Assembly (NCBI RefSeq): GCF_000021745.1
Contig: NC_011666.1
Coordinates: 1,054,001 to 1,118,000, forward strand
Length of the DNA: 64,000 nucleotides
DNA from: Methylocella silvestris BL2
GTDB lineage: Bacteria > Pseudomonadota > Alphaproteobacteria > Rhizobiales > Beijerinckiaceae
Direction of reading: 5' to 3'
Shown: piece after piece, positions 5,838-9,786 of the stretch
Layout: every line of letters begins with the position of its first letter
How positions within the stretch are numbered: the stretch's first letter is position 1
Notes under the pieces: model-generated
Told to the model about the DNA's origin: nothing
The model's database searches: none
What the model saw: the letters and a program-made list of their open reading frames with translations, nothing else
Translations under genes and position numbers: made by a program

Positions 5838-6233
5838 TCAAGCGCCCTTCATCTGATTGATCGCTACCGCCACGACATGACCGAGCCAGACCGCGAGAAG
5901 GCAGAACACAACGGAGAGCGCGATATTGCCCCCGGCGCGAATCATCTCGCCCTGGCGCATCAGATTCAGCGTCTGCAGGCTGAAGGAGGAAAAGGTCGTG
6001 AAGCCGCCGCAGAGGCCGATCATCACGAACAGGCGCGCCGATTCGCCGACGACAAAACGCCCCTCGGCTCCCGTCAGCGACCCGAAGAAGCCGATGAGGA
6101 AAGAGCCCGACACATTGATGAGCACGGTGCCCCAGGGGAAGATCCCGCCGGTCTGCTCGGCGACGAAGCCGGTAACCCAGAAACGCGCCGCCCCGCCAAG
6201 CGCGCTGCCGATCATGATCCAGAGATAGTCCAT
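5838..6233 (-). CDS. crcB: Fluoride exporter / ion channel CrcB (Fluc)
   Basis: 131-residue inner-membrane protein with four hydrophobic helices. The family signature GGFTTFSSFS is present near residue 78, together with the N-terminal GGAARF and the mid-protein INVSGSFLIGF. Fluc channels are dual-topology dimers that expel fluoride. The start at 6233 (MDYLWIM) is preferred because AGGA lies about 8 nt upstream; an ATG 18 nt earlier is possible. No fluoride riboswitch is visible upstream. The gene follows moeA in the same direction, but a terminator lies between them. Confidence 0.93.
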   Translation of the reverse strand: MDYLWIMIGSALGGAARFWVTGFVAEQTGGIFPWGTVLINVSGSFLIGFFGSLTGAEGRFVVGESARLFVMIGLCGGFTTFSSFSLQTLNLMRQGEMIRAGGNIALSVVFCLLAVWLGHVVAVAINQMKGA

Positions 6234-6255
6234 TGAGATCCTCAGCATCACGCCG

Positions 6256-6294: not shown

Positions 6295-7575
6295 CTAACG
6301 TATCAGATCGTAATCAATGAAATTCACGCGATCGCCCGGGGCGATCTCGACGGCCTCCTCCGGCAGATCGACGAAGCCGCGCGTTCGCGTCAGCGAGGTC
6401 AGCACCGCCGCGCCCTGCCCGGCGTATTTTTCGGCGGTCAGGACGCCCGAGGCGTCGCGAAAAAGGCTCGCCCGCAAAAATTCGCGGCGCCCGGCCTTTT
6501 TCCGGTAAGCGAAACCGGAGGCCACGGGGACGGCGAGCGGCGCCTCAAAACGCGCGCCGGACAAAGCGGCGATAAGGGCGCGCGCGACGAACACAAAGCC
6601 GATAAAGGCCGCAACCGGATTGCCCGGCAGGCCGATGAAGGGCGCGCCGTCGATCACGCCCATCGCCAGCGGTCGGCCGGGCTTGATCGCGAGGCGCCAG
6701 AAATGGAGCGAGCCCTGTTCGAGAATCGCCGCCTTCACATGATCCTCTTCTCCGACAGAGACGCCGCCGGAACTGACGATAAGGTCATGGCCTTTCGCGG
6801 CCTTGCGCAGCGCCGCGGCGATCTGCGTTTTGTCGTCGGGCAGAATGCCGAGATCAGTGACCTCGAGGCCCTGGCGGCGCAGCAGCGCGCAAAGCAGAAA
6901 TCGGTTGGCGTCGTAAGCGTCCGGCGCTTGCAGCGCGCCCTCGATCCGCGGCAGCACAGGGCAGACGAGTTCGTCGCCGGTCGAAAAGATCGCCGCCTTC
7001 AATCGGCGCCGGACGGTCAGTCGATCGAGCCCGAGCGCAGCGGCAAGGCCGATGTCCTCCGGCGCCAGCCTGCGCCCGGCGGCGATGGCGAGCGCGCCGA
7101 CGTCGATGTCCTCGCCGCGCAATCGCCGATTGTCGCCGGGTTTCAGGCCAGGCGGCAGGACAACGCGGCCGTCCGCCGTGAGGCGGCAATCTTCCTGCAT
7201 GAAGACCGTGTTCATCCCGGGCGGCATCATCGCGCCGGTGAAGATCCGCACGGCCGTGCCGGAGAGATCGTCGCCGCCCGCAGGATCAAAAGACCGGCCG
7301 GCAGCCATTCTCCCGCCGATCGGCAGCACGCTCTCGCCCGCCGTCGCAAGATCCTTGAAGGCGACCGCATAGCCGTCGACGGCCGAATTGTCGAAGCCCG
7401 GCAGAGCGAGCGGCGCCGTCAGATCATGGGCCAGGATGCGGCCGTCAGCCTCAAAAATCGAGACGGTCTCGAGGTCCCCCGTCGCCGGCGCGCGCGCCAC
7501 GAGCCAGGCGGCGGCCTCCTCGACGCGCATCGGCTTCTCGCCCGCCGCGAAAATATCCTGGCCGAGCTGCGTCAT
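6295..7575 (-). CDS. moeA: Molybdopterin molybdenumtransferase MoeA
   Basis: Inserts molybdate into adenylated molybdopterin to form Moco. 426 residues. Family marks: FDNSAVDGYA near residue 62, IFTGAMMPPG near 112, RGEDIDVG near 153, the MoCF-binding core FSTGDEL and SSGGVSVGEEDH (~270), and GLPGNPVAA (~322). Its ATG overlaps the mobB stop by 4 nt (ATGA at 7575-7572), so the two are translationally coupled. Together they supply the bis-MGD cofactor used by enzymes such as formate dehydrogenase or nitrate reductase. Confidence 0.95.
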   Translation of the reverse strand: MTQLGQDIFAAGEKPMRVEEAAAWLVARAPATGDLETVSIFEADGRILAHDLTAPLALPGFDNSAVDGYAVAFKDLATAGESVLPIGGRMAAGRSFDPAGGDDLSGTAVRIFTGAMMPPGMNTVFMQEDCRLTADGRVVLPPGLKPGDNRRLRGEDIDVGALAIAAGRRLAPEDIGLAAALGLDRLTVRRRLKAAIFSTGDELVCPVLPRIEGALQAPDAYDANRFLLCALLRRQGLEVTDLGILPDDKTQIAAALRKAAKGHDLIVSSGGVSVGEEDHVKAAILEQGSLHFWRLAIKPGRPLAMGVIDGAPFIGLPGNPVAAFIGFVFVARALIAALSGARFEAPLAVPVASGFAYRKKAGRREFLRASLFRDASGVLTAEKYAGQGAAVLTSLTRTRGFVDLPEEAVEIAPGDRVNFIDYDLIR

Positions 7576-8120
7576 CGACCGCCTTCAGGCGCGCCGCCCC
7601 GCGCGAGCACGGCGAGCGTCGCCTCGACCGGCTCGGCGAAGCGCAAAATGAGGTCCGCCGCCGCAGCCACATCGTCGAGATGGGCGTGCGGCAGCGAGCC
7701 GGCGCCGGGGGGATCGTCGCTGATCACCGCCACGATGCCCGGATCGTCCGGAAAGAGCGGCGGCTTGCCGTTGGCTGCCCGGCTCACCTCGATTTTGGCG
7801 TGAGCGTCGCGCTTGAACCCTTCGATCAGGACGAGATCGACCGGGCTCAGTCGCGCCAGCAGCTCGGAGAGGGACGGCTCCTCGCCGTCGCGGATCTCAT
7901 GCATCAGGGCGAAGCGTTTGGCGGAGGCGATCAGAACCTCGCTGGCGCCGGCTTCGCGGTGACGATAGGAATCCTTGCCGGGCTGGTCGATGTCGAAGGC
8001 GTGATGGGCGTGTTTCAGCGTCGACACGTGAACTCCGCGCGCGATAAGATGGGGAATGAGCTTGACGATCAGCGTTGTCTTTCCGGCTCCGCTCCAACCC
8101 GAAAGTCCGATCACGCGCAT
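7572..8120 (-). CDS. mobB: Molybdopterin-guanine dinucleotide biosynthesis protein MobB
   Basis: 182-residue P-loop GTP-binding protein thought to assist MobA in making molybdopterin-guanine dinucleotide. Walker A GWSGAGKTT at residues 8-16; then LKHAHH (~36), the family DSYRHREAGA (~51) and VDLVLIEGFKRDAHAKIEV (~97-115). It is the first gene of mobB-moeA and is divergent from tusA across a 132-nt gap that contains a perfect palindrome. Confidence 0.93.
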   Translation of the reverse strand: MRVIGLSGWSGAGKTTLIVKLIPHLIARGVHVSTLKHAHHAFDIDQPGKDSYRHREAGASEVLIASAKRFALMHEIRDGEEPSLSELLARLSPVDLVLIEGFKRDAHAKIEVSRAANGKPPLFPDDPGIVAVISDDPPGAGSLPHAHLDDVAAAADLILRFAEPVEATLAVLARGGAPEGGR

Positions 8121-8175
8121 GCGAGCCTCGCTTTCGGCGAGACGCGCGAGCGCAAAGGGGGCAAGAACTCCGTAC

Positions 8176-8191
8176 TATTCCTTATGGAATA
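8176..8191. promoter_or_regulatory. Palindrome between mobB and tusA
   Basis: TATTCC-TTAT-GGAATA, perfect 6-bp arms with a 4-nt centre, in the only AT-rich part of the mobB/tusA divergent gap. The symmetric form suggests an operator for a dimeric regulator controlling both directions. It does not match the molybdate ModE box as I know it, so the regulator is unknown. Its function is inference. Confidence 0.35.
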
Positions 8192-8252
8192 TAGCATGCA
8201 GATCGTTTATCCTTCAAAACTTCTCGCGCCGATCCGGAGCCCGCAAACGCGC

Positions 8253-8495
8253 ATGAGGGCCGACTCCGCCACAACCTCGCTCGACCTCAGGGGTCTTGCC
8301 TGTCCGCTGCCCGCGCTGCGCACCGCCAAGGCGTTGCGCAAGCTCAACGGGGGCGATCTGCTCATCGTCGAATGCACCGACCCGCTCGCCTCGATCGATA
8401 TTCCGCACCTTCTCAACGAGACAGGCGATGCGCTCGAACGTCAAGACCGCCGCGATGACGCGCTGATTTTCCATATCCGGCGGAAGCGGCCATGA
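8253..8495 (+). CDS. tusA: TusA/SirA-family sulfur carrier
   Basis: 80-residue sulfur-transfer protein. The N-terminal LDLRGLACPLPALR carries the family CPxP motif whose cysteine accepts persulfide sulfur. TusA proteins serve tRNA thiolation and, in E. coli, also affect sulfur supply to molybdenum cofactor synthesis, which suits the divergent mobB-moeA. The ATG at 8253 begins a normal-length protein; an in-frame ATG at 8184 would add 23 residues with no family match and lies inside the palindrome. Its stop overlaps the next gene by 4 nt (ATGA). Confidence 0.85.
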   Translation: MRADSATTSLDLRGLACPLPALRTAKALRKLNGGDLLIVECTDPLASIDIPHLLNETGDALERQDRRDDALIFHIRRKRP

Positions 8496-9061
8496 GCGGG
8501 GAGAATCGCCCGGACATCAAGACCCTCGCTTCGCTGGTGTTCGAGGATGGCGAGCGGGCAAACTTCATTGTCGAGGCCTTTGTCGCGGAGCTTTCCGCCG
8601 AGGGCTACAGGCTTGGCGGCGTGATCCAGCTCACGGAGGCGGCGCAAAGCTGCGATTGCCGGGACACCGAGCTTCGCAATGTCGAAACCGGCCAGACCTT
8701 CTCGATTCTTCAGGATCTTGGCCGGCAATCGCAATCCTGTCGCGTCGATCCGGGCGCGATCGCCAGAGCCGCCGGCGAGATCGCCGGGGCGCTCGAACGA
8801 TCCCCCGACCTTCTGTTCATCAATCGCTTCGGCAAGCTTGAGATCGAGGGCAAGGGCCTCTACGCCGAAATCGGCGCGGCCGCCATGGCCGGCGTGCCGA
8901 CGCTCGTCTGCGTGCCGATGCGCTTTCTGGGGGCCTGGCGGAATTTCACCATGGGCCTCGACGAGGAGCTGCCCTGTTCGGCCGAAGCGCTGCGGCGCTG
9001 GTGGAGCGCATTCGCCGTCGGAGGCGCCGTCGCGACGATTCGGGCTGGCGCGGCGTCTTGA
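8492..9061 (+). CDS. DUF2478-type protein (NTPase-like fold, molybdenum-linked)
   Basis: 189 residues resembling the DUF2478 family, which is often found beside molybdenum genes. The recognisable core is LFINRFGKLEIEGKGL (~residues 109-124), reminiscent of the Walker B region of THEP1-like nucleoside triphosphatases. I see no clear Walker A in the N-terminus, so nucleotide binding is doubtful. A SCDC motif near residue 54 and further cysteines at ~83 and ~140 could bind metal. The gene overlaps tusA by 4 nt and the NUDIX gene by at least 4 nt, giving a tightly coupled trio. Function unknown. Confidence 0.7.
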   Translation: MSGENRPDIKTLASLVFEDGERANFIVEAFVAELSAEGYRLGGVIQLTEAAQSCDCRDTELRNVETGQTFSILQDLGRQSQSCRVDPGAIARAAGEIAGALERSPDLLFINRFGKLEIEGKGLYAEIGAAAMAGVPTLVCVPMRFLGAWRNFTMGLDEELPCSAEALRRWWSAFAVGGAVATIRAGAAS

Positions 9062-9786
9062 GCGCATATGAGCCGCCTCACATTGAAGACGTCGACGAGC
9101 TGATCATCAAAATCGAAGAAAAGGGCTGGGCCTTTGCGAGCGATCAGGCAGCGGAGATCGACCTGCACTGGCAAAAGCTGCGCGAGGCCAATCCGCATCT
9201 TTTCAACGGCCGCGTCTTTCTGAATTTCGAGCGCGCGCTGGAGACGCGAAACGATCGGCGAATTTTGTCGGGCGTCGCCGCCGCGGTCGATTTCAAGGCC
9301 TTCCTGGCCTGGCGCGATTTCGGCTTTCCCGATGTTGAAACGCGCAATTGCTTTGCGATGGCGGCGCTCGTCTCGGCTGACGGCGCCTTCATGCTCGGAC
9401 GTATGAGCGAATCGACCGCCAATGCCGGAAAAATCTATTTTCCGGCCGGCACCCCCGACCTCAGCGACGTCGTCGGCGACCGCCTCGACCTTGAAGGCAG
9501 CGTCGCGCGTGAATTATTGGAGGAGACGGGGATCGCAGCCGACGAAGTCGCCTTCGACGCCGGCTGGCGCGTCGTTTTCGAGGGACCGCGCATCGCCTGC
9601 ATGAAGACGACGCGTTCGCAGCTCACCGCGTCGCAAATCGAGGCGCAGTTTCGCGCCTTCGCCAAGCATCAGAAAAGCCCGGAGTTCTCCGCGCTGCATC
9701 CGGTGTTTTCCGAAGCCGATCTTGTCGCGGACAGGATGCCCGATTTCACGCTGCGCTATCTGCGCGACGAGTTGGCGAAAGCCTAA
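9058..9786 (+). CDS. NUDIX hydrolase
   Basis: 242-residue NUDIX-fold pyrophosphohydrolase. The box is recognisable around residues 140-165: FPAGTPDLSD then GSVARELLEETGI, the REUxEExGU core with its metal-binding glutamates. Substrate unknown. The start is placed at a TTG (9058) that overlaps the upstream stop as TTGA; this removes an Arg-rich segment running back to a GTG at 9001 that lies inside the DUF2478 gene. It is the third gene of the tusA operon and ends 4 nt into the convergent lipoprotein gene. Confidence 0.85.
   Translation: MSAYEPPHIEDVDELIIKIEEKGWAFASDQAAEIDLHWQKLREANPHLFNGRVFLNFERALETRNDRRILSGVAAAVDFKAFLAWRDFGFPDVETRNCFAMAALVSADGAFMLGRMSESTANAGKIYFPAGTPDLSDVVGDRLDLEGSVARELLEETGIAADEVAFDAGWRVVFEGPRIACMKTTRSQLTASQIEAQFRAFAKHQKSPEFSALHPVFSEADLVADRMPDFTLRYLRDELAKA

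Follow-up and report, generated by a model that had tools for sequence, protein, structure and literature searches.

A DUF2478 gene overlapping tusA beside molybdenum cofactor genes in Methylocella silvestris BL2 belongs to a family associated with molybdenum genes

The DUF2478 protein family is linked to molybdenum genes, a well-supported association that is wider than the window from the methane-eating bacterium M. silvestris BL2 (the whole 64,000-nucleotide stretch of DNA analyzed here) could show by itself. The locus in the window consists of a late molybdenum cofactor (Moco) module, mobB-moeA, and a divergent pair of overlapping genes, tusA and the DUF2478 gene (Table 1). By its predicted structure, the DUF2478 protein is probably a descendant of the THEP1-type P-loop NTPases that has no Walker A motif, and it may now help handle molybdenum.

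Gene calls and Pfam searches recovered the genes, their coordinates, their divergence over 132 nt and the overlaps at the rightward junctions that a preliminary description of this region had reported. The tusA/DUF2478 and DUF2478/NUDIX overlaps are each 4 nt (the latter given the TTG start of the NUDIX-like gene), mobB and moeA likewise overlap by 4 nt, and the tusA-DUF2478-NUDIX order and overlaps are found again at the two remaining Methylocella loci, L002 and L003. The DUF2478 match spans the full PF10649 profile (positions 1-159 of 159) and is the single such place in the BL2 genome. The window tusA is also the sole TusA place found there; its LACPLP sequence fits CPxP, which we take to be the TusA motif, and it scores under the NCBIfam TusA equivalog cut-off (36.9 bits vs 78). 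MoeA_N has two places in the genome, the window moeA and one other.

Table 1. Features of the M. silvestris BL2 locus (window coordinates)
Feature	Position	Strand	Evidence or remark
moeA (molybdopterin molybdotransferase)	6295..7575	-	Pfam MoeA_N, MoCF_biosynth, MoeA_C
mobB (P-loop adaptor, Moco guanylylation)	7572..8120	-	Pfam MobB 174 bits; TIGR00176 154.5 bits, cut-off 76.2
Divergent gap, 132 nt	8121..8252	.	between mobB and tusA
Inverted repeat TATTCC/GGAATA, 6-bp arms, 4-nt loop	8176..8191	.	chance level
tusA, LACPLP motif	8253..8495	+	Pfam TusA 65.5 bits
DUF2478 protein, 189 aa, predicted THEP1-type fold without Walker A	8492..9061	+	PF10649 178.3 bits, cut-off 22.3
NUDIX-like gene, TTG start	9058..9786	+	Pfam NUDIX 21.5 bits, cut-off 21.1

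The spread of DUF2478 is patchy (90 of 297 genomes), and it was found in only two of 14 control genomes, so Moco does not generally require it; the control-genome search found no DUF2478 protein in E. coli. Its neighborhoods were surveyed at 131 loci, 12 of 143 having been left out where the gene caller missed the ORF. The same-order sample was 100 of the 122 listed places besides the window's own, picked by hand, and the outside-order sample was 40 places picked by hand from search listings. At least one molybdenum gene was recognized no more than five genes from DUF2478 at 54 of the 93 same-order loci, at 12 of the 35 outside-order ones and at all three Methylocella loci, vs one of 40 control places, although the surveyed loci are related and not independent, with kindred genomes repeating. 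The controls were hand-picked places away from DUF2478 in same-order genomes that bear it, and the same models were run on them; the lone match is a gene (L227) that fits both the MoeA and MobA models. The preliminary description had stated that DUF2478 is often near molybdenum genes, and these counts bear it out. The strict count of 54 replaces a first count of 57 of 93 because the NarH model also matches unrelated Fe-S proteins; the context labels on the DUF2478 tree still rest on that model. No molybdenum gene was recognized by the models used at 39 of the 93 same-order and 23 of the 35 outside-order loci. Within one gene of DUF2478 the excess outside the order is weak (4/35 vs 0/40, P 0.043), and none of the three Methylocella loci has a molybdenum gene that close.

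Neighbors named by Pfam at representative loci include nitrate reductase gamma and delta subunits, molybdopterin oxidoreductases, MoCoBD, MoCF_biosynth, TOBE (molbindin), NifQ, NifX-type, MobA-like, FdhD and MoaE proteins, and DUF2478 occurs inside nif clusters and at metal-uptake loci. The molybdenum families were derived from clusters recurring near DUF2478, with the labels ModE, NifE/N, NarH and NapD assigned by eye (in Pfam the ModE-like seed gives a weak helix-turn-helix match under the cut-off). Such a choice among recurrent neighbors, the kinship of the loci and the many loci without molybdenum genes might all be read as signs that the neighborhood is coincidence and that DUF2478 has no molybdenum role; however, the same models give a single match at the controls, and the fusions, which occur in separate lineages, and the plasmid-borne Moco operons also argue against this reading, which we regard as extremely unlikely.

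Full-length MobA-DUF2478 fusions are present in three genomes of two genera (G331, G1171 and G1215), and a DUF2478-DUF4213-DUF364 fusion occurs in five proteins (L187, L189, L199, L279 and L296). A Shinella plasmid carries the Moco operon moeA-moaA-moaD-moeB-moaC-DUF2478-mog, in Salipiger glp-mobB-mobA-fdhD diverges from DUF2478, and FdhD adjoins DUF2478 both there and at locus L039. Among 13 plasmid records (hand-picked from 40 listed of 48 matched, some for a visible Moco gene), ten have molybdenum or nif genes, one has none and one carries no annotation; one record has TusA together with the DUF2478-DUF364 fusion. Neighborhoods, fusions and operons thus back the earlier suggestion that DUF2478 is a candidate molybdenum factor. 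Molbindin, ModE-like regulators (a by-eye label) and uptake genes among the neighbors might instead suggest that DUF2478 acts in molybdenum sensing or regulation and not as a carrier, but Pfam gave no DNA-binding or signaling domain in the window protein and the fusion partners found are MobA and DUF364, so such a role is very unlikely.

The published neighborhoods of DUF364/DUF4213 include molybdate, tungstate and vanadium transport, and flavin or pterin derivatives have been suggested as what DUF364 acts on (PMC2954201). The latter proposal, the MobA fusions and the mobA, mobB, fdhD, moeA and mog genes that adjoin DUF2478 would all suit a MobB-like partner of MobA that works on the pterin side, binding Mo-MPT/MGD, protecting it and handing it to apo-enzymes. 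We consider this possible but doubtful, since molybdenum and not pterin is common to nif clusters and metal-uptake loci, and since the presence of DUF2478 is independent of MobB (strong MobB match in 56 of 90 genomes with DUF2478 vs 125 of 207 without; P 0.80). By the same counts DUF2478 is neither a replacement for MobB nor dependent on it.

The predicted structure of the window protein (pLDDT 89.6) matches 1ye8 (Z 14.0, rmsd 3.1 over 154 residues) and 2i3b (Z 13.3), with the next structure at 8.9. The window protein contains no Walker A motif (GxxxxGK[ST]); GK[ST] lies near the start of three of 132 DUF2478 ORFs, and by eye its place is plausible only in L221 (PGRGKT). In Pfam, 42 of 72 DUF2478 members match NTPase_1 at E ≤1 (best 2.3e-8), and two relatives (L033 and L199) exceed its cut-off; the window protein itself has no match at E 0.1 or E 1. 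Five of the seven matches with positions shown start at profile position 14-22, which we take to be after the P-loop. The same 72 members have no Pfam MobB match at E ≤1, the window protein has none by Pfam or TIGR, and a PDB sequence search with the DUF2478 alignment returned two insignificant matches only (E 0.68 and 0.86). Glu117 is invariant (123/123) and Cys83 nearly so (115/123), the latter being missing at seven of ten nif loci.

TusA lies within two genes of DUF2478, and on its strand, at 14 of the 131 loci vs none of the 40 controls; for the same-order loci alone the excess is marginal (9/93 vs 0/40, P 0.057). The 14 loci are one 12-member clade that includes Methylocella (tree support 94, just under the starred level) and two separate cases, which amount to three changes on the DUF2478 tree; the link between TusA and DUF2478 proposed earlier recurs in separate lineages. 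At the eight loci of this clade from another family, no convincing molybdenum gene was recognized beside the pair. E. coli TusA provides sulfur for molybdopterin (PMC3831636; PMC5372717). The pairing, with overlapping genes in five of the 14 cases, the conservation of Cys83 and the FdhD adjacency noted above might point to DUF2478 as a sulfur acceptor whose Cys83 would accept a persulfide from TusA (or work alongside FdhD) to sulfurate Moco or MoaD. This is unlikely, as TusA is absent from the five nearest genes at 117 of the 131 loci even though Cys83 is nearly universal, and most nif copies dispense with that residue.

The NUDIX-like gene, described earlier as part of the unit, is among the surveyed loci a neighbor of DUF2478 in Methylocella only (within five genes at 3/3 Methylocella, 0/93 same-order and 0/35 outside-order loci); it is ruled out as a partner outside that genus and is a local addition to the tusA-DUF2478 pair. 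In the 16 other genomes listed with both genes, inspection by eye places the two on separate contigs or 61 kb or more from each other. Judged by eye against what we take to be the Nudix box consensus, the NUDIX-like gene has the RELLEETGI tail and a divergent upstream half.

The perfect palindrome reported in the divergent gap exists, and TATTCC-4 nt-GGAATA occurs nowhere else in the genome, but its significance does not hold up: 42.4% of 1000 dinucleotide-shuffled gaps contain one or more repeats just as good (6-bp arms, loop ≤10 nt). It is retained in M. silvestris TVC and missing from the mobB-tusA gaps of M. tundrae (376 nt) and of L036, from another genus (72 nt; gene starts as called in this analysis). 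Because 42% of shuffled gaps are as good and M. tundrae lacks the repeat, nothing here speaks for a shared switch. A common circuit built on this palindrome is not supported, given its chance level, its lack of conservation and its single site in the genome, and the repeat, dismissed as an operator, is unremarkable. Also present in the gap are the 6-mer palindromes CGCGCG, GCATGC and TCCGGA and, as a consensus match only, a single sigma-70-like site at 8217-8188 on the - strand.

We infer from the fold, the missing motif and the genomic contexts that DUF2478 could work beside TusA in an accessory role, keeping hold of a molybdenum species until it is inserted into the cofactor, and we give this about an even chance of being correct. 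The protein would have evolved from a THEP1-type P-loop NTPase whose Walker A has since been lost, and the vacated anion or nucleotide pocket, with Cys83 and Glu117, might hold molybdate or a nascent Mo-pterin. It would then hand this species on for insertion and finishing by MoeA and MobA, or in nif clusters to the FeMo-co machinery. In the TusA-linked clade, TusA would give the dithiolene sulfur of the same cofactor, and the TusA-DUF2478 pair would therefore serve sulfur and metal together. The contexts extend across Moco and FeMo-co and single out no one step. More tentatively, DUF2478 could be a disarmed NTPase turned molybdenum chaperone, a single family that takes the metal from import or storage through to insertion for both cofactors and is retained as an accessory that travels with individual molybdenum operons and plasmids, its pairing with TusA in the Methylocella-type clade linking metal and sulfur supply.

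To our knowledge, little is understood of how molybdenum gets from its transporter to the cofactor inside the cell, storage proteins and molbindins aside. Given its occurrence next to genes for uptake, storage, Moco and FeMo-co and its fusions to MobA, DUF2478 is a testable candidate for this transit. In the literature searched under that name, DUF2478 is mentioned in one paper, as an entry in a table-like listing of protein families from plasmids.

Among known systems, the window tusA resembles the TusA of the IscS-TusA relay to MoaD in being a TusA-family gene beside Moco genes, but it is paired with DUF2478, whereas the E. coli role involves no DUF2478 protein, none having been found there. 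The DUF364/DUF4213 proteins (PF04016, PF13938) are fused to DUF2478 in the five proteins above; they are other domains, and the window protein is without them. MobB has a P-loop-type fold, and DUF2478 shares with it such a fold, as predicted, as well as adjacency and fusion to MobA and a Moco context; unlike MobB, DUF2478 has no Walker A and no Pfam MobB match, and it occurs with or without MobB. The closest likeness is to THEP1/NTPase_1 (PF03266; 1ye8 and 2i3b), with which DUF2478 appears to share the fold of the whole domain, and from which it differs in lacking the Walker A motif and in its molybdenum context.

Gene coordinates and Pfam matches agree with the preliminary description, in which moeA and mobB diverge from a tusA-DUF2478-NUDIX unit across a 132-nt gap. 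The genome is one contig of 4.3 Mb in which one TusA place and one DUF2478 place were found; this moeA is one of two moeA places, and eight PF00384 genes or gene parts represent molybdoenzymes elsewhere. A molybdopterin oxidoreductase place of the same genome (L291, C1:3656400-3657839) has one in-frame TGA, possibly reflecting a selenocysteine enzyme or a broken gene. Two relatives, Methylocella silvestris TVC and M. tundrae, were found in the genome collection (DUF2478 identity 89% and 69%, respectively). Directly downstream of moeA lies crcB (fluoride channel family; 5838-6236), with a counterpart called in TVC and none called in M. tundrae.

Genes of the divergent locus (window positions)
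Gene	Position	Direction	Support
moeA	6295-7575	leftward	Pfam
mobB	7572-8120	leftward	Pfam
tusA	8253-8495	rightward	Pfam
DUF2478	8492-9061	rightward	Pfam
NUDIX-like gene	9058-9786	rightward	Pfam, bare pass

The mobB/tusA-DUF2478 divergence is found outside Methylocella and is intact, with a spacing of 72 nt, at L036, a locus in another genus of the same family (G231). In four further genomes (G060, G187, G238, and G272), mobB and DUF2478 share a contig at a distance of 14-18 kb, on opposite strands in the first three. The gap palindrome (TATTCC-N4-GGAATA) occurs once in the genome, but a role as an operator finds no support: 42.4% of 1000 dinucleotide shuffles of the gap contained one or more 6-bp repeats with a loop of at most 10 nt, and the sequence, kept in the TVC gap, was absent from the mobB-tusA gaps of M. 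tundrae and L036.

Within the order, 90 of 297 genomes carry DUF2478, as do 32/337 and 36/348 genomes of the class and phylum samples (the samples overlap in some genomes) and two of 14 control genomes, both methanogens. Its presence is independent of MobB and does not follow it (56 of 90 genomes with DUF2478 have a strong MobB match versus 125 of 207 without).

The survey covered 100 same-order places, 40 from outside the order, and 40 controls from DUF2478-bearing genomes of the order; genes were called at each and searched with one common profile set; 131 of 143 DUF2478 loci were usable, including the window and the two other Methylocella loci. The idea that DUF2478 is often near molybdenum genes was borne out: with the loose NarH profile excluded, such a gene lies within five genes at 54/93 order loci (P 1e-10 versus controls), 12/35 loci outside the order (P 4e-4), and 3/3 Methylocella loci, versus 1/40 control places. 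Within one gene, the counts are 31/93, 4/35, 0/3, and 0/40, respectively. Neighbor representatives named by Pfam include Nitrate_red_gam, Nitrate_red_del, Rotamase (PpiC), NnrS, MoCF_biosynth, molybdopterin oxidoreductases, MoCoBD, TOBE, NifQ, Nitro_FeMo-Co, DUF269, MobA-like, Peripla_BP_2, FecCD, and QRPTase, the last being labeled ModD here. A nar-operon tail recurs at L033, L038, L103, L282, and L284: genes for PpiC isomerase, hemerythrin, and carbonic anhydrase, next moaB or moeA, and finally DUF2478, in some with NnrS close by; a molybdenum role for the isomerase and carbonic anhydrase is not obvious. TonB receptors adjoin three loci outside the order; at L212, L218, and L219 (outside the class), the vicinity of DUF2478 holds a TonB-dependent receptor together with uptake genes of the Peripla_BP_2/FecCD type, possibly an outer-membrane system for taking up molybdate or tungstate.

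At 14/131 loci versus 0/40 controls, TusA is no more than two genes away from DUF2478, always on the same strand (14/14); the two genes overlap in five pairs and are 31-457 nt apart in nine. When 123 proteins are placed on a tree, 12 of the 14 group in a single clade (SH-aLRT 94) comprising Methylocella, L036, and eight loci from one other family. Because L189 and L222 separate from it, three changes are needed on the tree. At L222 DUF2478 precedes tusA and the pair diverges from mobA, and in Azospirillum ramasamyi tusA adjoins a DUF2478-DUF364 fusion gene. FdhD, another sulfurtransferase of molybdoenzymes, follows DUF2478 together with MobA at L039 (TusA is 4 kb further) and adjoins it in Salipiger too. 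E. coli TusA is described as relaying sulfur from IscS towards MoaD (PMC5372717), and Moco-dependent activities as lost in tusA mutants (PMC3831636).

Thirteen plasmid records (the Cupriavidus one carries no annotation) include moeA-moaA-moaD-moeB-moaC-DUF2478-mog in Shinella sp. PSBB067 and DUF2478 divergent from glp-mobB-mobA-fdhD in Salipiger sp. CCB-MM3. Leisingera, Defluviimonas, Fuscovulum, Thioclava, Mesorhizobium, Azospirillum B510, Shinella HZN7, and Aureimonas plasmids have moeA/glp, moaA, nar, nifQ, or modA nearby; the Paracoccaceae La 6 record has no such molybdenum or nif gene near DUF2478. DUF2478-DUF4213-DUF364 fusions occur at L187, L189, L199, L296 (an A. ramasamyi plasmid protein), and L279, there behind Oxidored_nitro and Nitro_FeMo-Co genes. 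This nif-type cluster and fusion (L279:1-3703) lie in a genome that also bears a MobA-DUF2478 fusion. DUF364 neighborhoods are described as holding molybdate, tungstate, and vanadium transport genes, and flavin or pterin chemistry has been proposed for it (PMC2954201). The L207 protein (G331) joins MobA (18-173) to DUF2478 (218-373), its gene directly behind MoaE and MoaD-like genes (the latter scoring under the Pfam cut-off); full-length counterparts in G1171 (84% identity) and G1215 (another genus, 55%) complete the best three among the matches listed from 297 genomes of that order. These MobA fusions point to DUF2478 as a candidate pterin factor, but uptake, storage, Moco, and FeMo-co contexts share the metal and not the pterin; we therefore prefer to see in DUF2478 a candidate carrier of molybdenum, or an aid to its insertion, rather than a factor for the pterin alone.

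Among the 123 proteins, Glu117 (123), Gly122 (122), Gly43 (121), Phe113 (120), and Cys83 (115) are conserved; Cys83 is missing from seven of ten nif-locus copies, and those ten form one clade. Unlike THEP1 and NTPase_1, DUF2478 lacks a Walker A motif, and L221 is the sole DUF2478 ORF with a Walker-A-like relic (PGRGKT, at the ORF start and, by eye, in the right place). By eye, PGRGD (L126) and RGRGR (L100) occupy the same place. The Pfam NTPase_1 profile is matched by 42/72 members at E ≤1 (best 2.3e-8), and seven matches with positions given start at profile 14-22 (five), 4, and 86. The AlphaFold2 model of the window protein (pLDDT 89.6) matches THEP1, with hits to 1ye8 (Z 14.0; Foldseek E 8.4e-5) and 2i3b (Z 13.3; E 5.3e-4) ahead of the next structure at Z 8.9.
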